Assembly (NCBI GenBank): GCA_020072965.1
Contig: JAIQFY010000013.1
Coordinates: forward strand, 1 to 64,000
Length of the DNA: 64,000 nucleotides
Direction: 5' to 3'
Source: Terriglobia bacterium
GTDB lineage: Bacteria > Acidobacteriota > Terriglobia > JAIQFV01
The translations under genes were made by a program, and so were the position numbers. The notes beneath the pieces are model-generated. The model did not search any database, had not been told where the DNA came from, and worked only from the letters and a program-made list of their open reading frames with translations. This document shows, piece by piece, positions 29,091 to 42,459 of this stretch; within the stretch, counting starts at the first letter, position 1; the number at the start of each line of letters is the position of its first letter.

Positions 29091-31952
29091 ATGAAGAAAC
29101 AGACCCTTAACCTCAAGCTTATCCTCACGTTCACCGTCCTGACCATTATCCTCACGTGGCTAGTTATTCTCACTTGGGAGCAATGGCTGCGTCAACCCTT
29201 TTACACGTGGGTTGAAGCCCACTATATCGGCACGGATCGGCAATATCGAATTGAGCAGCGCACCGAGCATTTCTTTATATCAACCGCGGTCGATGTCATT
29301 GTGGTCACCCTCTTGCTTCGCCTGGTCAGCCGCCAGCAGCGCAAGCTGCAGGCCAGTGAGGTCCGTTACCGGACATTATTTGAGCACGCCAATGATGGCA
29401 TCGGGGTGGTGACGGCGAATGATCACCGGCTCGTCGAAGTCAACAATCGGTTTGGTGAAATCCTGGGATACCAGCCTCAGGCCCTGCTGGGTAAGGATAT
29501 TCGTGACCTGGTGCGAGGGAACGGGGACCGGACTGCCTCCGATGCGTTTATTGCGCTGCTCGACCGAATCGATTCGGGAGAGGGTGAGCTCACGATGCAA
29601 AAAGCGGCGGGAGAGACCCTGCCGGTCATGGTGTCGTTCAGCAAGCCGTCGATGGAAGAAGAGAAGCTCGTGGTTCTCATCATCCGGGATTTATCCGAGC
29701 GCAAGCGGGCCGAAGCGAAATTTTCCGGGCTGCTGGAGTCTTCTCCGGACGGGATCGTGATTTCCCGGAATGACGGGAAGATTGTTCTCATCAATGCGCA
29801 AACCGAAAAGCTGTTCGGGTATCGAAAAGATGAGTTGCTCGAGCAGCCCATTGAGATGCTCATGCCGGACCACTTGCGCAACGTTCACACCGGGCACCGC
29901 ACCGGTTACATCTCGGCGCCCCGGATTCGTCCCATGGGCTCGGGGCTGAACCTGATTGGCCGGCGGAAAGACGGTGTCGAGTTTCCGGTGGAAATCAACC
30001 TCACGCCCATGTTCACAGAGGACGGACTTCTCGTCATTAGCGACATCCAGGACATCTCGGAGACGAAGCGCGCGAAGGAGGCGCTCAGCAAACTTTCGAG
30101 TGCCGTTGAACAGACTGCAGACACCGTCGCCATTACCGACAGGGAAGGGATCATCGAGTACATCAATCCGGCCTTTGAAAAGCTCGCTGGGTACAGCCTG
30201 GATGAGGTTGTCGGCAAGACCTTCCGGATTCTCAAGTCAGGCAAGCATGATCAGGAATTTTACAGGAACCTTTGGAGAACCATCCTCTCCGGCCAACCCT
30301 TTCGGGGCGTCTTGATCAACAAGAAGAAGAACGGGGAATTGTACTACGAGGAAAAAACGGTTACGCCGTTGAAGGATGGCAAGGGGAACACGACACACTT
30401 TGTCTCCACAGGAAAAGACATTACGGACCGGAAGCAGGCGGAGGAGTCGCTGCGGGACTCCGAGAAGCGCTACCGGCTGATGTTCAAAAGCAACCCCCTT
30501 CCCATGTGGGTGTATGACCAAGAGACCTATGCCCTCCTGGATGTGAATGAGGCGGCGGTCCGCCACTATGGATACTCGCGCGAAGAATTTCTTAACATGA
30601 CCATCAAGGACATGCTCCCCTCTGACGGGGCTCCCGTGGTTCTGCATGCGGGATCCACTCTCCGGGAGGGAAGTGATGCTGCGCCCGTCTGGCGGCACCA
30701 AATGAAGGAGGGAACTGTCATTTACGTTGAAATCAGTTCGCACACGTTGACCTTTGCCGGCAGGCCAGCGGAGATAGTGCTTGCCAACGATGTCACCGAG
30801 CGACTGAAAGCGGAAGATGCCTTGCGGGAGAGTGAAGAGCGCTATCGCATGCTGTTCACCAGCGCCAACGACGGGGTCTTTGTCAATACCCTGACCCCGG
30901 GGGGCAGGGTGGACCAGTTCATCGAGGTCAACGATGTCGCCTGCCAGAGCCTGGGCTACAGCCGGGAAGAGCTTTTGAAACTGACGCCGACCGACATCAA
31001 TCCCCATGAGTTTCGGGACGAGGTCCAGTCTCTGATGCGGAGAATCCTCTCCGAGAAGCATCTCCTCTTTGAGAGCGTGCAGGTAGCCAAGGACGGCCGG
31101 AGGTTCCCCGTCGAAATCAACCTCCATCTGTTTGATTACCGCGGCCAGCCCCTGATTCTCTCCATCGTGCGCGATATCACGGAACGGAAACAGCTCGAAG
31201 CTGAAAAAGAAGAGATGCAGCGTCAGTTGTTCCAATCTTCCAAACTTGCTTCCATCGGGGAACTCTCCGCAGGCGTAGCTCATGAGATCGGTAATCCCCT
31301 GAATTCCATCATTAACTTCGGCCAGTTGCTGAAGGACGCCGGCATCGCCCGGAGCGAGATTGAGCGGCAGGTCATCGATGGGATTATTGACGAGGGAGGC
31401 CGCATCGCCAAGATTGTCCGTGACCTCCTGGCTTTTGCGCGCCGCGATTCGCAGGAGCTGGCCCGGGTCAATATCGGGGAGACCATCAACAACTCGATGT
31501 CGCTGTTTGGGCGTCAGCTGGATACCGATGGCATTTCCGTGGAAATCAATGTGGGGGAGGATATTCCCCCGGTCATGGCCAGCGGATCTTTACTCCGGCA
31601 GGTGATTGTCAACATGATCACCAATGCCCGCCATGCCTTAAGGGCAAAATCCACTGATAGCAAAGTATTCCGCATTACCGTCCGGGCGGTCGGGCGGGGA
31701 GAAGGCACGATCGTCCGCATCGAGTTCTTTGACAACGGAGTCGGAATCCCCCGCCAGAACCTCGACAAGGTTTTCGATCCCTTCTTCACCACGCGGCGCG
31801 ATAGCGGTGGGACCGGACTGGGGCTGAGTCTGAGTTTCGGTATCGTCCGTACCTATGGCGGGACGGTCACCGTGGAAAGCGAAGAAGGGGCATTTACGCG
31901 GTTCCGGGTTGAGCTTCCTGCCGCCCCGGCTGGGGAGGAGGAATATGCCTAA
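29091..31952 (+). CDS. Membrane-bound multi-PAS sensor histidine kinase
   Basis: A 953-residue kinase. Two transmembrane helices (about 9-27 and 62-80) flank a short extracytoplasmic loop. About five PAS domains follow (near 90-205, 210-330, 335-455, 460-580 and 585-705), several ending in the usual DITDRKQAE-like connector. The dimerisation/phosphoacceptor domain has the H-box ELSAGVAHEIGNPLNSIINF (about 724-743), and the HATPase domain (about 820-950) has DNGVGIP and GGTGLGLSLSFGI. The H-box form AHEIGNPL resembles the NtrB/AtoS-type group that partners NtrC regulators. The stop overlaps the next gene by eight bases. Confidence 0.93.
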   Translation: MKKQTLNLKLILTFTVLTIILTWLVILTWEQWLRQPFYTWVEAHYIGTDRQYRIEQRTEHFFISTAVDVIVVTLLLRLVSRQQRKLQASEVRYRTLFEHANDGIGVVTANDHRLVEVNNRFGEILGYQPQALLGKDIRDLVRGNGDRTASDAFIALLDRIDSGEGELTMQKAAGETLPVMVSFSKPSMEEEKLVVLIIRDLSERKRAEAKFSGLLESSPDGIVISRNDGKIVLINAQTEKLFGYRKDELLEQPIEMLMPDHLRNVHTGHRTGYISAPRIRPMGSGLNLIGRRKDGVEFPVEINLTPMFTEDGLLVISDIQDISETKRAKEALSKLSSAVEQTADTVAITDREGIIEYINPAFEKLAGYSLDEVVGKTFRILKSGKHDQEFYRNLWRTILSGQPFRGVLINKKKNGELYYEEKTVTPLKDGKGNTTHFVSTGKDITDRKQAEESLRDSEKRYRLMFKSNPLPMWVYDQETYALLDVNEAAVRHYGYSREEFLNMTIKDMLPSDGAPVVLHAGSTLREGSDAAPVWRHQMKEGTVIYVEISSHTLTFAGRPAEIVLANDVTERLKAEDALRESEERYRMLFTSANDGVFVNTLTPGGRVDQFIEVNDVACQSLGYSREELLKLTPTDINPHEFRDEVQSLMRRILSEKHLLFESVQVAKDGRRFPVEINLHLFDYRGQPLILSIVRDITERKQLEAEKEEMQRQLFQSSKLASIGELSAGVAHEIGNPLNSIINFGQLLKDAGIARSEIERQVIDGIIDEGGRIAKIVRDLLAFARRDSQELARVNIGETINNSMSLFGRQLDTDGISVEINVGEDIPPVMASGSLLRQVIVNMITNARHALRAKSTDSKVFRITVRAVGRGEGTIVRIEFFDNGVGIPRQNLDKVFDPFFTTRRDSGGTGLGLSLSFGIVRTYGGTVTVESEEGAFTRFRVELPAAPAGEEEYA

Positions 31953-33486
31953 AGTCTTGCTGGTGGACGATGAGCCCAACGTGCGGTGGACAATGGCGGA
32001 ATTCCTGACCCGAGCCGGCTATGAGGTTGTCATCGCGTCGGACTTCGACAGCGGCGTGGCCCAACTGGAAGCGGCTGGCACCCTCGATGTCGCGGTCTTT
32101 GACATCATCCTCCCGCGCAAGAGCGGGGTTGAACTGCTGAAAGAGGCCCACCGCCGGGATCCGGATCTTCCCGTCATCATGATTACTGCAGATCCCGATT
32201 TGTCGAGAGTTCCCGAAATTGTCCGGGAGGGCGCCTACGATTTCATGGCCAAGCCGGTTGTGAAGAATGCGCTGATCAACGCGGTGTCGAGAGCCTTCGA
32301 AAAGAAGCGGCTGATCAACGAAAAGCGCCGGCTCGAGGAAGAGATCAGACGTCATGCCGAACATCTCGAAGTCCTGGTCACCGAGCGAACGCGCGAGCTG
32401 GCGGAAGCGCATAATTTTCTGAATACGGTGCTGGAGAGCTCCACCGAATATGCCATCATCGCCATCGACACCGGCGACCGCTTCACTCTTTTCAACCGGG
32501 GGGCGGAACTGATGTTCGGATACGTCGCCGAGCAGGCTTTGGGGAAAGAGGTCAGAGAAATCGTGGCGGACCCGAAGTTCGGCCCGGAAGACAAGCCTTT
32601 GTTGAAGTGCGGGGAAGAGGCCGAGGCCACGGGGCGCCACGAGGTGGAAATCCAGTTGGCTCGGGCCGACGGCAGCCGCTTTGTTGCCTCCGCGGCGATG
32701 ACGCCTCTCCGGAAAGCCGACGGGCCCCTGCTGGGATACCTGGGAATCATCAAGGACTTGACCGTGGAACGGGAGAAGGAAGAGGAGCTGCGACTGATGC
32801 AGGCCCGTCTTGCACACAACGAAAAAATTGCCGCGCTCGGCCGGGTGGCCGCGCAAGTCGCACACGAAGTCAAGAATCCCCTGGCGGGCCTGAAACTGTA
32901 CTCGCTCCATCTGAAGAATAAGGTGGCCGGGCAACTGGGTCCGGCCGAGATGGAGTTGGTGGAGAAGATCCTTCTCAGTATTGACCACCTCTCGGACACG
33001 GTGGAGAAGGTTCTGGACTTTGCACGACCGGTAAAGCTAGTCCGCCAACCGGTGGATCTCAATGGAGTCGTCAACGAAGCCGTTCACATGCTCGAGCCCC
33101 AAATGAATGCGAACCGGATTGAGAAACAGCTGGATCTTGCCGGCCCCGATGCCGGCGGCATGCTCGACGAAACCTCGATCCGGTCCGCCGTGGTGAATCT
33201 TATGGTCAACGCCATTCAAGCGATGCCGGAGGGCGGCAGGCTCCGTGTGACGACAGCGAGATCGAGAAGACAACTGACTTTGACCATTTCGGATACGGGA
33301 TGCGGGATGACTGAAGAGCAAGCGAAAAACGTTTTTGAGCCATTTTACACGACCAAGAACAAGGGTCTCGGTCTGGGGATGCCCTACGCCAAGAAGGTGA
33401 TTGAAGAACACGGGGGGACGATCCAACTCAATAGCCGACCGGGACAGGGTACCCAAACGGAGATTACATTGCCAGTTGAGGAGTAA
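31945..33486 (+). CDS. Hybrid REC-PAS-histidine kinase (NtrB-like)
   Basis: A 513-residue cytoplasmic protein with an unusual order. An N-terminal receiver domain comes first (1-120; phospho-acceptor D53 in VAVFDIILPRKSG), then a short coiled coil, a PAS domain (about 155-275), HisKA with AAQVAHEVKNPLAGLKLYSL (about 300-320) and HATPase (about 400-513, DTGCGM and KGLGLGMPYAKKV). It can receive phosphate from the upstream kinase and also phosphorylate a further regulator, most simply the NtrC protein encoded two bases later. ATG at 31945, preceded by GGGGAGGAGGAAT, is chosen over the longer frame to 31855. It is translationally coupled on both sides. Confidence 0.92.
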   Translation: MPKVLLVDDEPNVRWTMAEFLTRAGYEVVIASDFDSGVAQLEAAGTLDVAVFDIILPRKSGVELLKEAHRRDPDLPVIMITADPDLSRVPEIVREGAYDFMAKPVVKNALINAVSRAFEKKRLINEKRRLEEEIRRHAEHLEVLVTERTRELAEAHNFLNTVLESSTEYAIIAIDTGDRFTLFNRGAELMFGYVAEQALGKEVREIVADPKFGPEDKPLLKCGEEAEATGRHEVEIQLARADGSRFVASAAMTPLRKADGPLLGYLGIIKDLTVEREKEEELRLMQARLAHNEKIAALGRVAAQVAHEVKNPLAGLKLYSLHLKNKVAGQLGPAEMELVEKILLSIDHLSDTVEKVLDFARPVKLVRQPVDLNGVVNEAVHMLEPQMNANRIEKQLDLAGPDAGGMLDETSIRSAVVNLMVNAIQAMPEGGRLRVTTARSRRQLTLTISDTGCGMTEEQAKNVFEPFYTTKNKGLGLGMPYAKKVIEEHGGTIQLNSRPGQGTQTEITLPVEE

Positions 33487-33487
33487 T

Positions 33488-34867
33488 ATGCAAATGCGAC
33501 CCAGTGAGAGGATTCTCGTAGTCGATGATGAAAGCAGTATCAGCGGGGCGATGAAAGTCATTCTGGGGGAACAGGGATACGAGGTCAAAACGGCTGAGAG
33601 CGTGGGCCAGGCCACAACCATCCTCAACGGTCGCCCGTTCGATCTGGTGTTCACGGATCTCAAACTCCCGGATGCCTCCGGGATTGATCTGCTCGGGCAA
33701 ATCAAGAGCGATACTCCGGACACGGAAGTCATCCTGATGACGGCCCACGGCTCCCTCGACGTCACTATCGAAGCCATCAAGAGGGGCGCCTATTACTACA
33801 TTGAGAAGCCTTTTGTCCCCGACCAGGTGGTCATGCTGGCCCAGCGGGCGCTGGAGGCGGCCGCCTTTCGCCGCGAAAATCAGACTCTAAAACGAGTGCT
33901 TTCGAGCGAGGACGAGGCCTTTGGGATCATCGGGCGCAGTCCCAAGATGCGCCAGATCTATGACACGATTCGGGCGACCGCTGCCGCGGATGCCTCCGTT
34001 TTGATCGAGGGGGAGAGCGGGACGGGGAAGGAACTCATCGCCCGGGCCTTTCATCTTCAGGGAACCCGTGCCGACCGGCCCTTCGTATGCATTAACTGCG
34101 CCGCCATCCCGCGCGATTTAATCGAGTCGGAGTTGTTCGGGTACAAGAAGGGAGCGTTCACCGGCGCCGACCGAGATAAGCGTGGATTGATGGAAACCGC
34201 CTCTGGCGGGACCCTGCTGTTGGACGAGATTGGTGAAATGCCGGTTCATCTTCAGACCAAACTGCTTCGTGTTCTACAACAGAGAAAACTCCGGCGCGTC
34301 GGCGATGAACAGGAGTTGGATGTGGATTTCAAACTGATTTCCGCCACCAACCGCGACACCTTGCAGGCGATTCAACAGGGGGAGTTGAGGGAGGATCTTT
34401 ATTACCGCATCAGTACGATCAAGATCAAGGTCCCACCCCTGCGGGAACGGCTCGATGACCTGGTTCTTCTGGCCGAGCGTTTCCTGGAACGTTACAGTAA
34501 GAAGTATAACAAACACATCGTCGGGATCGCACAGCCCACTTTCGCGCTCCTGACACGGTACCCTTGGCCCGGCAACGTCCGGGAACTGGAGAGTGTCGTG
34601 GAGCATGCCGTCCTCTTTTGTCAGGGTGAACAACTTGAGCCGCAGAACCTTCCCGAGCATATCCAAGCCGCCCGGAGCAGTCGATTCAGATGTGACGTCC
34701 TCCCTTATATGACGCTGGAAGAGATCGAGCGCGACGTGATCGAACAAACCCTCGAAAGGACAGGGGGCAATGTGAAAAAGACGGCTGAAATATTGAGTCT
34801 CCATCGCCCCACCCTGTATCGCAAGCTCCGTAGCTACGGGATTAAAGGAAAACGCGCTGTTTCATAA
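33488..34867 (+). CDS. NtrC-family sigma-54-dependent response regulator
   Basis: A 459-residue transcription activator. Receiver domain (about 7-125, D57 in VFTDLKLPDASG); central AAA+ domain (about 148-385) with Walker A GESGTGKE (175-182), the sigma-54-contacting loop GAFTGAD (222-228) and GGTLLLDEIGEMP; C-terminal Fis-type HTH (about 415-455, GNVKKTAEILSLHRPTLYRKL). All elements for activating sigma-54 RNA polymerase are intact. It ends the kinase operon. The next intergenic region holds a consensus sigma-54 promoter, with two more further on, which makes them its likely targets. Confidence 0.95.
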   Translation: MQMRPSERILVVDDESSISGAMKVILGEQGYEVKTAESVGQATTILNGRPFDLVFTDLKLPDASGIDLLGQIKSDTPDTEVILMTAHGSLDVTIEAIKRGAYYYIEKPFVPDQVVMLAQRALEAAAFRRENQTLKRVLSSEDEAFGIIGRSPKMRQIYDTIRATAAADASVLIEGESGTGKELIARAFHLQGTRADRPFVCINCAAIPRDLIESELFGYKKGAFTGADRDKRGLMETASGGTLLLDEIGEMPVHLQTKLLRVLQQRKLRRVGDEQELDVDFKLISATNRDTLQAIQQGELREDLYYRISTIKIKVPPLRERLDDLVLLAERFLERYSKKYNKHIVGIAQPTFALLTRYPWPGNVRELESVVEHAVLFCQGEQLEPQNLPEHIQAARSSRFRCDVLPYMTLEEIERDVIEQTLERTGGNVKKTAEILSLHRPTLYRKLRSYGIKGKRAVS

Positions 34868-35090
34868 TAGAACATATTTATGTATTTGATTTATAATTAA
34901 ACACTCTGTCTGAATTTATTCGGTCGTATTCCATCTCTGATCCCCCTGATTACGCCCGGCCTTTGGAGAATAATCTGGACTGGGTTCCAGCCGACTCGGC
35001 TTGTATACACAATGAGTTGAACGATTTTTGGTTCTAGCTCATCCTCACTTAGCTAAAATCCGAACCACCAACACACCCTCATCACTCGAT

Positions 35091-35106
35091 TGGCACATGA
35101 GTTGCT
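35091..35106 (+). promoter_or_regulatory. Consensus sigma-54 promoter (-24/-12)
   Basis: TGGCAC (35091-35096), five bases, TTGCT (35102-35106). This matches the TGGCAC-N5-TTGCW consensus at every position. Transcription would start near 35117. It reads towards the hairpin-rich leader and the REC-only gene. The NtrC-type activator is encoded immediately upstream. Confidence 0.85.
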
Positions 35107-35116
35107 AACTAACTTT

Positions 35117-35235
35117 CCTCAGGGAGGACTTTTTTCTCTACCGCCGGGTCCTCCTGAGATCTCCCCGCGATGCGCGGGGGACAGGACAACCGCACGTAGG
35201 ATTTTTATGATCTGAGAGTGTTGTCCGGTTTTAGA
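35117..35235 (+). ncRNA. Candidate sigma-54-dependent small RNA or structured leader
   Basis: Three consecutive stems begin one or two bases after the predicted start. First, CTCAGGGAGGAC/GTCCTCCTGAG (35118-35129 with 35148-35158, one bulge). Second, CCCCGCG/CGCGGGG with an ATG loop (35163-35179). Third, GGACAAC/GTTGTCC (35184-35190 with 35220-35226), followed by GGTTTTA. It has no open frame and ends about 135 bases before the REC gene, so it may be a free RNA or a 5' leader. No known RNA family was recognised. Confidence 0.45.
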
Positions 35236-35371
35236 TGGCATTACTTTCGACTGCGAAGTGGGGCTGGTTCCGGTCATACCGTGAAGCAATTTGCAGTCGT
35301 TGGCTTACCTTTCTCGCCACCCATGAACCGGGTTCTGTAGGACTTTAAGTTAAAAGGAGATGGACTAATCC

Positions 35372-35743
35372 GTGGCTGAGAAAATCAAGATTCTTGTGAT
35401 CGACGATGAGCCAAGTGTCGTGGATGCCGTCAGGTTGATTTTGAATGACAACGGCTATGATGCGGTGGGCGTCATGACAGGCCGCGATGGGATTGAAGAG
35501 GGTAAGCGCGCACGATTTGACGTCACGATCACCGATCTTCGTCTGCCGGATATGTCCGGCCTTGATGTTCTCCGCTGGATTCGCAGTGAGGATCCTCAAA
35601 GCCGCGTCATCATTATTACGTCACACAGCACCCCCGAAGTCCTCATGAAGGCAAGAAACGCGGGCGCGGTGGACGTCCTCCCGAAACCATTCTCTCCGAG
35701 CGAACTCATTCAAATGGTCAACCACGCGCTGACAATTCATTGA
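35372..35743 (+). CDS. Single-domain response regulator (REC only)
   Basis: A 123-residue CheY-like receiver with no output domain. The acidic pocket is VIDDEP (about 9-14), the phospho-acceptor is D55 in TITDLRLPD, the switch Thr/Ser is in IIITSHS (about 84-90) and the conserved Lys is in LPKPFSP. The start is GTG at 35372 behind AAAAGGAGATGG. It could be a phosphate sink or relay for the two kinases upstream, or act by protein contact. It lies under the consensus sigma-54 promoter at 35091. Confidence 0.92.
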   Translation: MAEKIKILVIDDEPSVVDAVRLILNDNGYDAVGVMTGRDGIEEGKRARFDVTITDLRLPDMSGLDVLRWIRSEDPQSRVIIITSHSTPEVLMKARNAGAVDVLPKPFSPSELIQMVNHALTIH

Positions 35744-36288
35744 GTCGTCCCATCTGTTTTTGCGCGTACCCCCAGGTTTTTACCTTCCTCTAGTTCGCCC
35801 TCCTTTCTTCCTTCAAGCCTATTGATTGCAAGGCTGCCGCCTCGGGTCACGGGTGCAGCTCAAATCGCCGAAGAGCAAATAGGGGCGTTTCAAGTCGTTA
35901 TCCTTTGGTTTGTTTAGCATTATCGATACATAGTTTCAAAGTGATACACAGCCACGAAATAGTGATTCATTTATTATATGTGAGCGGAGGCAAGATACAG
36001 GCAGTTATTGTTGTAAACAATTGTATTTATTAGGATTGTACTAATAAGTTACGTTGGCATCACATTTGCTTATAAATGGCTGCTTGCAACCCGCATTGTG
36101 TTCGGTCGAGCGGGAAATAAGGGTGATACGGACTTTTGCAAGAGATCGATGTTAATAGAGCGCTATAGCACGTTTACTTAAAACTAGGGGGGTGCGTGCA
36201 AAGACGGGATACCTGGAATTCTTTAACTAAAAACAAAAAACAACAAAAACTAATGACGCTCTGTAGCATCGGCGCCAAGGAGAACAAT
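35744..36288 (+). other. Intergenic region upstream of secreted protein A
   Basis: 545 bases, becoming AT-rich after about 35920. It contains an ATTGTT-GTA-AACAAT inverted repeat near 36007-36021 and the sigma-54-like promoter at 36055-36070. A leader of about 205 bases includes the motif ATGACGCTCTG (36252-36262), also present before the twin gene at 39882. No gene is supported. Confidence 0.55.
36055..36070 (+). promoter_or_regulatory. Sigma-54-like promoter of secreted protein A
   Basis: TGGCAT (36055-36060), five bases, TTGCT (36066-36070). This has one mismatch to consensus (T for C at the sixth base), with the GG and GC dinucleotides at the required spacing. It lies about 220 bases before the start codon, and the sequence around it is AT-rich, as expected. 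Confidence 0.7.
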
Positions 36289-38802
36289 ATGAACAGGAGA
36301 AAGACAGTGGCTTTAACCAACCGGATCAATCACAGGGGGCAACTGGCATCCTTCGCAGTTGCGTTCCTTTTGCTTGCCGTGTTGGCCTGGACCGGGACCA
36401 TCGTGGCCCAGGGTCCAATCTCCCCGACTCAATTCGACATCACGGGCTTCCTCCAGGAGGCTACGGTGACCACTCCCGGTGACGCCCACTCTGGTGGTAC
36501 GTTGAAGGTCAACGGCCACAGCGTGATCGTGCCGAGGGAAACCATCGTGATCCTCCCGGCCAATTCCCTCACATGGGAAGAACTCTTCGCTCAGGCTCCC
36601 TCCCCGTACACGGGCGTAGCGACGGGCATGGCGATGGCCGACATTCCGACACCCCTTACCACGTATGAATTCGAGGTGGTGGGTAACCGCGTCGGCGACA
36701 CTTACATCGCCGGGCTCATCTACATTTCTCAGCAGGGCCTCAACTCGGGTGCGGGGTTCATTAACTTCATCGATTACACCCTGGGCGAGATGCGAGTGGG
36801 TGGGATTATCAACGACCCGAACTGCGCGCAGGGGGGCACCGCTGTGTCGAACCCCCTCTGTTCCGGCGCACGGGTGCGAATCAATGACCCGACGGGAAAG
36901 TTCGGTCGGGCAAATACACCGGATCAACGGTTCACGCTTGACCCCGATAACCCGACGATCATGAGCGGAACTGGTTACCCCGCTTGCTTGCCACGCACCG
37001 ACCCGGCCGGGGCGGCACCCGATGCTCTGTGCCCCGAGGGCCAGCGCCCGAAGGATCTGACCGGCGCGTATGTTGGCAAGTTCTTCACCAATGCTCCAGT
37101 GGCCGCCCCTGGGGTGACTCCAATGCCGGATCCGAACCTTCAGGCGCCGTTCGAAGTGGGTGACTACGTCACCTTCGCTGGAACGCTTGTTACCGACGCC
37201 GCCACTCCTACTACGGGACCGTGGCCGGCGAACGGAGCGGCGGGCACCTACATTTCTGCTCACACCATTACCAGCAACGTCGCCGTCTTCACCGCCGCGG
37301 GAACCAATCCTGCGTATGTGATGACCGACGTGTTTATTCTCGGGACTGGCGGTCTGACGGTCCTTGGCGCTGGCGAAGCGGTGATTCGAACCCGGTTCGA
37401 GGGGATGACCACCGACTTCAGCCGGACCATCCATCTTTATGGAATCGATGTGAACGCAGGCGATGGAAGCACAAGTGATCGCGACTGGGGTACCATCGGC
37501 GTCGATCCGGGCCCGCCCGCGGGCGCAGTTCTAGGCCGGTGGCGCTTCCGTCCGCCATGTGCTCCTTTTGGGACCGTTCCGACCAAACCTGACAAGCAGT
37601 GCGTCATGAACGCGCTAGGCGTCTTCTTGCCGGCCACACGAGAGATGCGTGCCGTGATCGAAGGCGCATGGGTCCCAGGGCAGACCACCACCTATGCAAA
37701 TGGGCTCATTGCTGGGCAGTACCATGCCCCCATCCTGGAACTCATCTTCCCGGAGAACGTCCCTGGAAGCCCTATCGTTCCGAACAACTTTGAGAGCATC
37801 CCCTTCCTGGCCTGTGGTGGTTATACCTCGTCCGCAGGGACCCTCGCAGGGCAGCTCAATCCCTGGCCCGGTGCTGCAGTTCCGTCACTGGCAGGTTGTG
37901 CGGGTGCAATCTCGCCGCCTGTCGCCAACGCCGGCCTCGCCCAGACAGTGCCTTCGGGCGCGCTGGTAACTCTGAACGGCAGTGCCTCCACGGGGACGGC
38001 CCCCTTGACCTTTGCTTGGGTCCAGGCCGCCACGGATGCCAATCAGGTGCTCCTGACGGGTGCGAATACTGCTAACCCGACCTTCACGGCTCCGCTTCTG
38101 GCAGCACCGGCCGTGCTGAACTTCACCCTGACGGTGACTAATAGCGCCGGTTCCTCCTCAGCCTCCGTGACGGTTACGGTCAACGCAGCAGCGGCTCCGA
38201 CCGCTAGCGCTCCGGCACCTCTATCCGTGATTTCCGGAACGCCGGTGACTTTGACGGCCACTTGCACTGATCCCGCTGGCCTGCTGCCTTGCACCTTTAG
38301 CTGGCTCCAGACGTCAGGCGCACCGATCGTGCTCAACCCGAATCCCTTCAGCGGCGCGACAATCAGCTTCACTCTCACGCTGCCGGTGGGTACCATCAAC
38401 AGCACCGTCCTCCAGTTCCAGGTGACGGCGACGAACTCAGCAGGTGTCAGCTCTTCACCGGCGTCGACCTCGGTGACGGTGAACCCGGCTCCGGACGCTG
38501 TCATTATCACCTCGGCGGTTTACCGGATCTCGAAGCAGCGGCTGGACCTCACCGCTTCATCGTCAGTGATCAGCCCGAACATCATCCTGACCTTGCAGCC
38601 TTACGTCACGACCTCAGGAGCCACCTTCGATCCCAGAAGCCTGGGGAGCACGGCGAACATCCTTACCAACAATGGCGGTGGTCTCTACATCATGACTTTG
38701 GTGGGTGCACCTGAGCCCGCTGTGCCACCGGCCACGCCTCTGACAGTGACCTCCAACATCGGAGGAAGAGGTACCTCAGGGTTGACCCTGATCCGGCAGT
38801 GA
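36289..38802 (+). CDS. Secreted protein A of unknown function with Ig/PKD-like domains
   Basis: An 837-residue exported protein. The signal peptide (about 1-41) has the hydrophobic core FAVAFLLLAVLAWTGTIV. A large domain follows (about 42-535, starting SPTQFDITGFLQEAT and containing VGNRVGDTYIAGLIYISQQG) that I cannot assign to a known function. Two Ig/PKD-like beta domains come next (about 541-638, PPVANAG...LNGSASTGTAPLTFAWVQ; and 639-735). The C-terminal domain (about 736-837) begins VYRISKQRLDLTAS. ATG at 36289 with AAGGAGAACAAT fixes the start; the frame is open from 36196. A near-duplicate is at 39919. A sigma-54-like promoter and a strong terminator bound it. Surface or matrix localisation is inferred from the leader and Ig-like folds. 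Confidence 0.85.
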   Translation: MNRRKTVALTNRINHRGQLASFAVAFLLLAVLAWTGTIVAQGPISPTQFDITGFLQEATVTTPGDAHSGGTLKVNGHSVIVPRETIVILPANSLTWEELFAQAPSPYTGVATGMAMADIPTPLTTYEFEVVGNRVGDTYIAGLIYISQQGLNSGAGFINFIDYTLGEMRVGGIINDPNCAQGGTAVSNPLCSGARVRINDPTGKFGRANTPDQRFTLDPDNPTIMSGTGYPACLPRTDPAGAAPDALCPEGQRPKDLTGAYVGKFFTNAPVAAPGVTPMPDPNLQAPFEVGDYVTFAGTLVTDAATPTTGPWPANGAAGTYISAHTITSNVAVFTAAGTNPAYVMTDVFILGTGGLTVLGAGEAVIRTRFEGMTTDFSRTIHLYGIDVNAGDGSTSDRDWGTIGVDPGPPAGAVLGRWRFRPPCAPFGTVPTKPDKQCVMNALGVFLPATREMRAVIEGAWVPGQTTTYANGLIAGQYHAPILELIFPENVPGSPIVPNNFESIPFLACGGYTSSAGTLAGQLNPWPGAAVPSLAGCAGAISPPVANAGLAQTVPSGALVTLNGSASTGTAPLTFAWVQAATDANQVLLTGANTANPTFTAPLLAAPAVLNFTLTVTNSAGSSSASVTVTVNAAAAPTASAPAPLSVISGTPVTLTATCTDPAGLLPCTFSWLQTSGAPIVLNPNPFSGATISFTLTLPVGTINSTVLQFQVTATNSAGVSSSPASTSVTVNPAPDAVIITSAVYRISKQRLDLTASSSVISPNIILTLQPYVTTSGATFDPRSLGSTANILTNNGGGLYIMTLVGAPEPAVPPATPLTVTSNIGGRGTSGLTLIRQ

Positions 38803-38815
38803 GTTAGTCAGTTCC

Positions 38816-39007
38816 TCACCGGTCGAAGAGCAAATGTTCTGCTCTTCGACCGGTTTTTTTTGAAGCTGCAGCCTTCGCACCTTTCAGGATCGAAAGAGAG
38901 CGTGGGGAATGGAAATCCGCAATGAGCTGAACGGGAAAGCTATACTCTGCGCCTGAGAATACATAAGTCTTCTCTTTGTCCGTGCCGCCAGAAAGATTTA
39001 CCCACAC
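38816..39007 (-). CDS. Possible small protein (63 residues), low support
   Basis: The minus-strand GTG at 39007 is preceded by AAAGGAGGAATC, a perfect ribosome-binding sequence four bases before the start. It reads MWVNLSGGTDKEKTYVFSGA and continues with mixed composition. The frame ends inside the terminator hairpin of secreted protein A, so its last ten codons are terminator sequence read backwards, and the counterpart position after the twin gene has no similar protein. It may be real, or a remnant. No family was recognised. Confidence 0.25.
   Translation of the reverse strand: MWVNLSGGTDKEKTYVFSGAEYSFPVQLIADFHSPRSLSILKGAKAAASKKTGRRAEHLLFDR
38819..38861 (+). terminator. Strong intrinsic terminator of secreted protein A
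   Basis: CCGGTCGAAGAGCA (38819-38832) and TGCTCTTCGACCGG (38840-38853) form a perfect 14-bp stem with a 7-base loop, followed by eight Ts (38854-38861). The same stem, with a different loop, follows the twin gene at 42476. Confidence 0.95.
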
Positions 39008-39454
39008 GATTCCTCCTTTCGACGACGCCCCCTTCTCTGTCCGCCTTCAGCCGCTGCTGAAAGATCAGTTGGCCCGCACCGATTGTCGCTCCTCATAGTA
39101 CAACGCTCCGAAATGTTCCATCGGTTCGATGCCGTTCAAGTACTCAACAAATAACTCCTTCTTAGCCTCCTATAATTTACGGGCCCGCACCCACAGAAGA
39201 GCAAAACCGCTCTCTCAACGGACCCCGGATCGCGCTGCCGGATCCTTTGAAGGCAAATTACGGATTTAACGCAGAATCGGCAATCGCTTGTTTGATTCAA
39301 TGACAGTTCAAACCACCACTTCCCGTCCTTATGATGAGTCTGTGTTAACCCAGCTCAAAGGGCACATTTCCATTTATTTACATTGAGTGTCACTGTGTAT
39401 CTAGACAGACCAAATTTTGTGCTTACCACAATAAATAAATTGATAATATTGTAT

Positions 39455-39477
39455 AAATGTTCTAAAAGAGAACATTT
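39455..39477. promoter_or_regulatory. Perfect palindrome, possible activator-binding site
   Basis: AAATGTTCT (39455-39463), five-base spacer AAAAG, AGAACATTT (39469-39477). Nine-base arms in AT-rich DNA, centred about 115 bases upstream of the -24 element of the sigma-54-like promoter at 39582. This is the usual distance for an NtrC-type enhancer site. A ten-base partial match (ATGTTCTAAA) occurs at 42814-42823, before the next secreted protein gene. Confidence 0.5.
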
Positions 39478-39581
39478 TATAGTAGTAATGGATCATTATG
39501 ATATATAATTATAGTAACATAATTAGTCATTAATTTTTTAGTATACTGTGTTTTTAATACATATGTAATGTAATAGTACAT

Positions 39582-39597
39582 TGGTATTTTATTTGCT
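39582..39597 (+). promoter_or_regulatory. Sigma-54-like promoter of secreted protein B
   Basis: TGGTAT (39582-39587), five bases, TTGCT (39593-39597). GG and GC are at exact sigma-54 spacing, with two mismatches to the -24 consensus. It lies about 320 bases before the start codon, and the position relative to the gene parallels that of the twin at 36055. Confidence 0.6.
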
Positions 39598-39918
39598 TGG
39601 AGCGTTATGCCCCCAGTAAGCAGGATTCTGTAGGAAATTCGAATTCGCACTGGAGATTGAATCATTGACGCGGGAGTATAGATGGAAAGATCGAGCCATT
39701 TGCAATTTGAGGCGAGGCAGTTTCGGCAGTCAATCAACTCCCCGTATGCAGTTCTTGCCTTAGAAAAGGCTGCTGCAAACCCTGGAGGGCTTACAAGCAG
39801 GGTCCATTTAGACCAGGCGGGTACACGTCAGGGCATAAACGATGGAACTTTCGGGTCACGCCAATCAACCCAACAGGCCCTTATGACGCTCTGCAATAAA
39901 AATAACAAGGAGACAATA

Positions 39919-42459
39919 ATGAAAGAAAAAATGAGAGTAGTTCCAGGGACTCAGACCCGCCACCGAGCGCACTGGGCGTCATTCGCAGTGGCGTTCCTGT
40001 TGCTTGCCGTGTTGACGTGGACTGGGACCATCGTGGCGCAGGGCCCGATTTCACCGACCCAATTCGACATCACGGGCTTTCTCCAAGAGGCCACATTGGG
40101 TGGACCTGGCACCGGTCCTGGTGTCGGCGCACACTCCGGGGGCACGTTGAAGGTGAACGGCCACTCGGTGATCGTGCCTTCAGAAACCATCGTCATCCTT
40201 CCCGCCAATGCGCTCACATGGCAGGAACTCTTTGCGCAGGCTCCCGCCCCTTACACGGGCGTAGCAACGGGCATGGCTATGGCCGACATTCCAACACCCC
40301 TTACCACGTATGAAATCCAGGTGGTGGGTAACCGCGTAGGCGACACCTACATCGCCGGGCTCATCTACATCTCTCAGCAGGGCCTCAACGCAGGTGCGGG
40401 GTTTATTAATTTCATTGATTACACCCTGGGCGAGATGCGAGTGGGTGGAATCATCAACGACCCGAACTGCGCGCAGGGTGGTACCGCCCTGTCGAACCCC
40501 CTCTGTTCAGGCGCGCGCGTACGCATCAACGACCCGACGGGAAAGTTCGGCAGAGCGATGACCCCGGATCAACGATTCACGCTCGACCCGGATAACCCGA
40601 CGATTAAGAGCGGCAGCGGTTTCCCCGCCTGCTTCCCACGCACCGACCCGGCTGGGGCGGCTCCCGATGCACTTTGCCCCGAGGGCCAGCGCCCGAAAGA
40701 CCTGACCGGCGCCTATGTGGGCAGTTTTTTCACCAATGCTCCCGTGGCTGCGCCCGGAGTGACACCGCTTCCGGATCCTAACATCCAGGCGCCCTTCGAA
40801 GTGGGTGACTACGTCATGTTCGCGGGAACGCTCGTTACCGACAATGCGGCGGCTCCCACAGCGGGACCGTGGCCGGCGAACGGGGCGGCGGGCACCTACA
40901 TTTCTGCTCACACCATCACCAGCAACATCGCGATCTTCACGCAGCCAGGGACCAATCCCGCTTACGTGGAGACCGACGTGTTCATTCTTGGGACTGGCGG
41001 ATTGACGGTCCTTGGCGCCGGCGAGGCGGTGATCAGAACCCGGTTCGAGGGGATGACCACCGACACGGCCCGGGGCATCCATCTCTATGGAATCGATGTG
41101 AACGCGGCAGACGGGAGCACATCAGACCGCGACTGGGGCACCATTGGCGTGGATCAAGGTCCGCCCACTGGCGCCGTGATGGGCCGTTGGCGTTTCCGAC
41201 CCCCGTGTGCAGTTTTTGGGACCGTTCCGGCAAAACCTGACAAGCAGTGCGTCATGAATGCGTTGGGAGTCTTCCTGCCGGCTCCGCGAGAGATGCGGGC
41301 TGTGATCGAAGGGCTACAAGGGCAGAACCCCGCCAGCCCCACCGCGGTCACCTCGGCTAACGGGCTCTATTACGGGCAGTACCACGCCCCCATCCTGGAG
41401 TTCATCTTCCCGGAGAACATCCCTGGAAGCCCGATCGTGCCGAACAACTTTGAGAGCATCCCCTTCCTGGCTTGTGGCGGTTATACCTCGTCCGCAGGGA
41501 CCCTTGCAGCGCAGCTCAACCCATGGCCCGGTGCGGCAGCTCCCTCGCTTTCGAATTGCCCCGGAGCCATCCTGCCCCCGGTCGCCAATGCCGGCGCAGC
41601 CCAAACGGTGCCTTCTGGTGTGCTCGTGACACTCAACGGCAGCGCCTCCACGGGGACGGCCCCCTTGACGTTCTCTTGGGTCCAGGCCGCCACGGATCTG
41701 AACCAGGTGCTTCTCACAGGTGCGAATACCGCGAACCCGACCTTTACAGCACCTATCGTGGGAGCGCCGGTCGCGCTGAACTTCACTCTGACAGTGACCA
41801 ATAGCGCCGGCTCCTCTTCAGCCTCCGTGACCGTCACGGTCGACGCGGCAGCTGCTCCGACCGCCAGCGCCCCTGCCCCTCTGACAGTGATTTCCGGAAC
41901 GCCGGTGACGATGACGGCCACGTGCACCGATCCGCTTGGACTGGCTTGCACCTTCAGCTGGCTCCAGACCTCAGGCGCACCGGTCGTGCTCAACCCGAAT
42001 CCCTTCAGCGGCGCGACAATCAGCTTCACCGTCACGCTGCCGGTGGGAACGACCACCAGCACGGTCTTGCAGTTCCAAGTGACGGCGACGAACTCTGCAG
42101 GTGTCAGCTCCGCACCCGCATCGACCTCGGTGACTGTGAACCCGGCTCCGGATGGTGTCCTCATCACCTCGGCGGTGTACCGGATCTCGAAGCAGCGGCT
42201 GGATCTTACCGCTTCATCGTCCGTGATCAGCCCGAACATCATCCTGACCTTGCAGCCTTACGTGACGACCTCAGGAGCCACCTTCGATCCCAGAAGCCTG
42301 GGGAGCACGGCCAACGTGATGACCAACAATGGTGGTGGTCTCTACGTTATGACCTTGGTGGGCGCACCTGAGCCCGCTGTGCCACCGGCCACGCCTCTGA
42401 TAGTGACCTCCAACATCGGAGGAAGAGGCACCTCGGGGCTGACCCTGATCCGGCAGTGA
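39919..42459 (+). CDS. Secreted protein B, near-duplicate of protein A
   Basis: An 846-residue exported protein of the same layout as protein A: signal peptide (about 1-41, ASFAVAFLLLAVLTWTGTIV), large unassigned domain with VGNRVGDTYIAGLIYISQQG, two Ig/PKD-like domains and the same C-terminal domain starting VYRISKQRLDLTAS. Long stretches are identical to A. Differences include an extra GTGPGVG-rich segment near residue 60 and a rewritten loop (GLQGQNPASPTAVTSANG) near residue 470. ATG at 39919 follows AACAAGGAGACAATA; the frame open from 39682 upstream is not used. A tandem duplication with retained promoter, leader motif and terminator is the simplest origin. Confidence 0.85.
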   Translation: MKEKMRVVPGTQTRHRAHWASFAVAFLLLAVLTWTGTIVAQGPISPTQFDITGFLQEATLGGPGTGPGVGAHSGGTLKVNGHSVIVPSETIVILPANALTWQELFAQAPAPYTGVATGMAMADIPTPLTTYEIQVVGNRVGDTYIAGLIYISQQGLNAGAGFINFIDYTLGEMRVGGIINDPNCAQGGTALSNPLCSGARVRINDPTGKFGRAMTPDQRFTLDPDNPTIKSGSGFPACFPRTDPAGAAPDALCPEGQRPKDLTGAYVGSFFTNAPVAAPGVTPLPDPNIQAPFEVGDYVMFAGTLVTDNAAAPTAGPWPANGAAGTYISAHTITSNIAIFTQPGTNPAYVETDVFILGTGGLTVLGAGEAVIRTRFEGMTTDTARGIHLYGIDVNAADGSTSDRDWGTIGVDQGPPTGAVMGRWRFRPPCAVFGTVPAKPDKQCVMNALGVFLPAPREMRAVIEGLQGQNPASPTAVTSANGLYYGQYHAPILEFIFPENIPGSPIVPNNFESIPFLACGGYTSSAGTLAAQLNPWPGAAAPSLSNCPGAILPPVANAGAAQTVPSGVLVTLNGSASTGTAPLTFSWVQAATDLNQVLLTGANTANPTFTAPIVGAPVALNFTLTVTNSAGSSSASVTVTVDAAAAPTASAPAPLTVISGTPVTMTATCTDPLGLACTFSWLQTSGAPVVLNPNPFSGATISFTVTLPVGTTTSTVLQFQVTATNSAGVSSAPASTSVTVNPAPDGVLITSAVYRISKQRLDLTASSSVISPNIILTLQPYVTTSGATFDPRSLGSTANVMTNNGGGLYVMTLVGAPEPAVPPATPLIVTSNIGGRGTSGLTLIRQ

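Follow-up and report, generated by a model that had tools for sequence, protein, structure and literature searches.

The stretch at positions 35117-35371 of the window (that is, of the whole 64 kb of DNA that was analysed, which lies on contig C5 of G000, a genome of 5.9 Mb) is probably the sigma-54-driven 5' leader of the mRNA of a REC-domain gene, and not a new small RNA. By computation, the promoter is conserved in the single orthologous locus, that of a second genome of the same genus (hereafter G001), the three-stem fold that follows the promoter is not conserved, there are no terminators, and a helix over the REC start codon is possible in both species. The initial annotation had proposed a sigma-54-dependent structured RNA with three stems; the comparison leaves that RNA without support, and an ordinary sigma-54-driven leader is indicated instead. 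If any part of this leader is regulatory, it is most likely the 3'-terminal part that covers the start codon, rather than the three stems.

The locus and its sigma-54 promoters

Genes for a PAS-rich histidine kinase (29091-31952) and a REC-PAS-histidine kinase (31855-33486) lead up to the gene for an NtrC-type sigma-54 activator, recognized by domain matches to REC, AAA+ and Fis HTH (33401-34867, + strand). Then come the leader, the gene for a stand-alone REC domain protein of 123 aa with a GTG start (35372-35743, + strand; PF00072, E 1.9e-30), a large PKD-domain protein (36196-38802) and a PKD-domain paralogue (39682-42459). The order NtrC-leader-REC-PKD is common to G000 and G001, with full synteny, and the two REC proteins are 87% identical. 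G001 holds the only orthologue found when the class, order, family, genome contigs and viral contigs were searched, the collection containing three genomes of the order. The PKD gene is a tandem duplicate in the window (38803-42459) and apparently single at the corresponding place on C5 of G001, and both genomes also carry PKD paralogues on several further contigs.

The -24/-12 promoter described in the initial annotation, TTGGCAC-N5-TTGCT (TTGGCACATGAGTTGCT; 35090-35106, + strand, spacer ATGAG), held up. The strict pattern TTGGCAY-N5-TTGCW, for which about one chance match per genome is expected, occurs eight times in G000 and nine times in the congener, as opposed to once in each for the reversed control, and both genomes encode sigma-54 (rpoN). 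At the same place G001 has TGGTGC-N5-TTGC, again with the spacer ATGAG and with GG-N10-GC kept. Judging from motif, enrichment and conservation, we take the promoter upstream of REC to be real, with an expected +1 near 35117 (counted 12 bases past the C of the -12 element). Its adjacency suggests that the NtrC-type activator probably controls it; a short-dyad search for shared upstream activator sites returned nothing convincing. A sigma-54 circuit at this locus is the more credible because two further promoters of this kind precede the genes for the PKD-domain surface proteins, namely TTGGCAT-N5-TTGCT at 36054-36070 (+ strand), identical to G001 in 17 of 17 bases, and a third one ahead of the PKD paralogue at 39581-39597.

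Several related sites were seen along the way. The AT-rich stretch upstream of the 36054 promoter (35925-36053) is conserved and may hold activator sites. In G001, a second -24/-12-like site (TGGCGGGTTCTTTGCT; L027, 4821-4836) lies 73 bases upstream of the conserved promoter and is absent in the window. Elsewhere, the promoter pair L094 (G000:C52:34302-34318, minus strand) and L096 (G001:C41:3049) is followed by about 150 conserved bases with no evident gene and a TCTCC-N5-GGAGA hairpin, past which similarity falls sharply; this pair may be a better candidate for a sigma-54 small RNA than the REC leader. The promoters of L055 (G000:C1:343000-347791, at about 1316) and L053 (G001:C18, at about 4646) share a GGTGGATAGATTGACA stretch, the first codons of the next gene are near-identical, and further PKD paralogues lie nearby, a side observation that we read as pointing to a wider sigma-54 regulon.

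The three-stem fold and its comparison with the congener

In the window sequence, three stems can indeed be drawn on the + strand. Stem 1 (35118-35158) begins about 1 base past the expected +1 and pairs 35118-35122 and 35124-35129 with 35148-35158, at a probability of about 1; stem 2 (35163-35179; CCCCGCG-ATG-CGCGGGG) pairs 35163-35169 with 35173-35179; and stem 3 (35184-35226) pairs GGACAAC (35184-35190) with GUUGUCC (35220-35226), enclosing an inner hairpin (35199-35203 with 35209-35213). The minimum free energy is -48.6 kcal/mol, with z scores in separate runs of -2.65 (5 of 200 shuffles as good), -3.18 and -2.89 (3 of 500). Against a background of 500 pieces of 119 nt, taken from both strands of the intergenic DNA in the window, a z of -2.65 or lower was reached by 5.2%, and the other sigma-54 leaders tested were mostly unstructured, the next lowest z being -1.97. 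The fold of the window sequence is moderately above chance.

The absence of coding potential noted initially was borne out, as there is no conserved frame and 1-nt indels separate G000 from G001; a small ORF in the leader is ruled out on the same ground. A repeat or mobile palindrome is ruled out by the sequence being single copy in the genome, and a CsrA-titrating RNA (RsmY/CsrB type) by the lack of CsrA in G000-G002, in a search that does detect CsrA in control genomes. Rfam gave no match for the stretch up to an E value of 5 and, at gathering score, tRNA alone across the window.

The intergenic stretch is 62% identical between G000 and G001 overall and 73% across 100 bases from 35092, a peak that is unexceptional, since those of the window's remaining intergenic stretches lie at 0.72-0.97. 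Identity in 40-nt windows is 0.62-0.75 over the first 150 transcribed bases vs. mostly 0.42-0.65 just upstream. The orthologue folds like its shuffles (z of -0.47, -0.52 and -0.38 in three runs). Even in a hand alignment that favors the stems, 19-20 of the 37-38 pairs are unchanged, two carry one-sided and two carry two-sided changes, and 12-14 are broken (that is, 12-14 of about 17 changed pairs); an automatic alignment gave the same picture. The outer pairs of stem 1 are broken in G001; stem 2 keeps its four outer pairs unchanged and loses its three inner ones; and the outer helix of stem 3 is partly broken. In the inner hairpin of stem 3, a U-A pair is replaced by G-C in G001, and pairing is retained. 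In pairing probability, this hairpin reaches about 0.3 in G001 and the counterpart of stem 2 about 0.06, and the counterparts of stems 1 and 3 are at about 0. Hence, of the stems put forward initially, the drawing itself stands, at a z of about -2.7 to -3.2, and the pairing is lost in the sole orthologue.

The three stems are missing from the consensus fold of the two sequences; the structure conservation index of that fold is no higher than in shuffled alignments, 59 of 300 of which scored as high. Local hairpins show compensatory changes at chance level, co-located hairpins with double changes being equally common in shuffled alignments. The covariance search that had been suggested, with a model built from the G000 and G001 sequences, found only these two loci among 399 genomes of the class; a further hit, in G049, is at chance level (per-genome E of 0.02, with 399 genomes searched), and no -24/-12 motif was found upstream of it. 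Most of what the initial annotation had named as evidence against the RNA was found, though two sequences are few for this purpose. Taken together, the comparison indicates that the three-stem fold is local to the sequence of one species and not a conserved RNA element; since there are only two sequences to compare, a rapidly changing small RNA could still be accommodated.

From the promoter to the REC start codon

In the leader reading, the NtrC-type activator encoded just upstream would switch on the sigma-54 promoter, transcription would start near 35117, and RNA polymerase would read through the three-stem part into REC. The promoter lies upstream of REC on the same strand with no terminator between, as expected of a sigma-54-dependent mRNA leader. 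The short T-rich end described initially was not borne out; it is only GGTTTTAGA, in which two bases separate the stem from the T run, and the terminator scan reported no terminator-like site after stem 3. Neither genome has anything resembling a 3' end suited to an RNA of about 120 nt, and a run of four T is absent from the whole G001 leader. With no terminator after stem 3 and no such T run in G001, transcription should run on into REC. A possible attenuator at 35113-35135 (CCTC/GAGG followed by TTTTTT) was rejected as too near the start, and its T run is absent in G001. The REC start (GTG at 35372) is well placed, as an in-frame stop lies directly upstream of it in both species, and a Shine-Dalgarno region (AAAAGGAGATGG) is found at 35352-35363 (+ strand). 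The predicted leader (35117-35371, + strand) is about 255 nt long in both genomes, and this conservation supports an unusually long leader ahead of REC, a leader of REC being one of the two options in the initial annotation. Between those options, the leader fares better and a discrete three-stem small RNA is unsupported.

It is nevertheless unlikely rather than inconceivable that processing, or termination near 35230, releases a discrete small RNA that depends on sigma-54, has three stem-loops in about 110-120 nt, acts in trans and works like the Pxr RNA of Myxococcus xanthus, which is made beside its own NtrC-type activator. By its NtrC-type gene, interval of about 250 nt, sigma-54 promoter and three stems, the locus closely parallels that of Pxr (PMC5568312, PMC5684412), hfq is present in the genome, and the fold (z about -2.9) stands out among the sigma-54 leaders tested, the others being unstructured, but the fold is lost in G001, no terminator follows it, it is far weaker than that of Pxr (z -6.5), and neither sequence similarity to Pxr nor an Rfam match was detected. 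Quite unlikely, too, is a cis element of this species alone, gained or lost after the two species diverged, e.g., a 5' hairpin that slows mRNA decay. Such an element would fit the strong stem 1 about 1 base past the expected +1 and the small 5'-terminal hairpin (CCUU-GUUG-AAGG) that G001 has in its turn, but shuffled alignments yield small co-located hairpins with double changes just as often. That the promoter-like site is inactive or a chance match, and the stems a chance feature of a GC-rich spacer, we consider improbable: the strict pattern is expected to match about once per genome by chance and about 5% of intergenic windows fold equally well, but the G001 site sits at the conserved position with GG and GC kept, and the same locus has two more sigma-54 sites.

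Within the leader reading, a leader arm near the 3' end (UUUCUCGCCAC; 35310-35320, + strand), complementary to the REC start codon region, pairs in both species with GUGGC (35372-35376) and GAGAAA (35378-35383), leaving one bulged wobble base. By covering the GTG and the codons after it (35372-35383), this arm would keep translation low until the helix is opened. In the alignment, 21 of 22 cells of the helix are paired (95.5%) vs. 41-55% for slid versions. When the whole leader plus first codons was folded for both species, the probability that the start codon is unpaired was 0.026 in the window and 0.000 in G001, values as closed being seen in 5% and 0.5% of shuffled leaders, respectively, and of 36 starts in the window just one is more closed than that of REC. 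Against shuffles, joint closure in both species has a p value of 0.02 and the alignment-fold energy one of 0.05; these p values, of just 0.02-0.05, belong to a helix noticed post hoc. When the start region was scored against the leader as a simple duplex, the result was not significant (13-18% of shuffles). No compensatory change in the helix separates G000 from G001, and its 3' arm belongs to the coding sequence, whose conservation has other causes. The persistence of the predicted helix in both species is suggestive of translational control of REC, and we regard a function for it as possible but doubtful. If the helix is real, translational control of the small REC protein would come on top of its transcriptional control by sigma-54 and NtrC.

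Comparison with known systems

Long 5' leaders with helices that sequester the start codon are a known kind of control. The REC leader resembles them in having an arm complementary to the start codon that is predicted to be closed in both species; it differs in that no ligand pocket, temperature motif or known regulator was identified here and no Rfam riboswitch or leader matched. The Qrr RNAs are Hfq-bound small RNAs with four stem-loops and a strong terminator. In Vibrio, the NtrC-family activator LuxO switches on their sigma-54 promoter (TGGCA-N7-TGC; PMC10162802), and the combination of sigma-54 promoter and NtrC-family activator is the likeness to the present locus, whereas no Rfam family matches the stretch here.

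By layout, the nearest known system is Pxr. The pxrK-pxrR-pxr locus of M. xanthus has an NtrC-type gene, a spacer of about 260 nt with a predicted sigma-54 promoter, and a triple stem-loop RNA (PMC5568312, PMC5684412, PMC10217877). Both stretches lie downstream of an NtrC-type response regulator gene with a sigma-54 promoter of their own, their spacers are of similar length (about 260 nt there vs. 250 nt here), an RNA of about 108 nt with three predicted stem-loops can be drawn in both, and histidine kinase genes adjoin both loci. However, SL3 of Pxr is a long helix ending in CUUCUUUU, whereas stem 3 here has 7 bp and no proper T run; the stems here are lost in a congener, so that the fold is not a conserved one; and an NADH dehydrogenase gene follows pxr where REC follows here. 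Local alignment with pxr scored no better than shuffles, i.e., we found no sequence similarity. In the same shuffle test, a Pxr sequence that we joined from the primer and probe sequences in PMC5568312 (the join of the two pieces being uncertain) had a z of -6.5, as opposed to about -2.9 for the window and -0.4 for the orthologue.

The present evidence thus speaks against filing this locus as Pxr, although by analogy the leader may work like it. It is also conceivable, if highly speculative, that a second Pxr-like arrangement arose independently outside the myxobacteria, in which an NtrC-type activator would fire a promoter just downstream of its own gene to make a fast-evolving three-stem RNA that doubles as a leader locking the REC start codon. 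The parallel with Pxr provides a concrete model for testing this locus.
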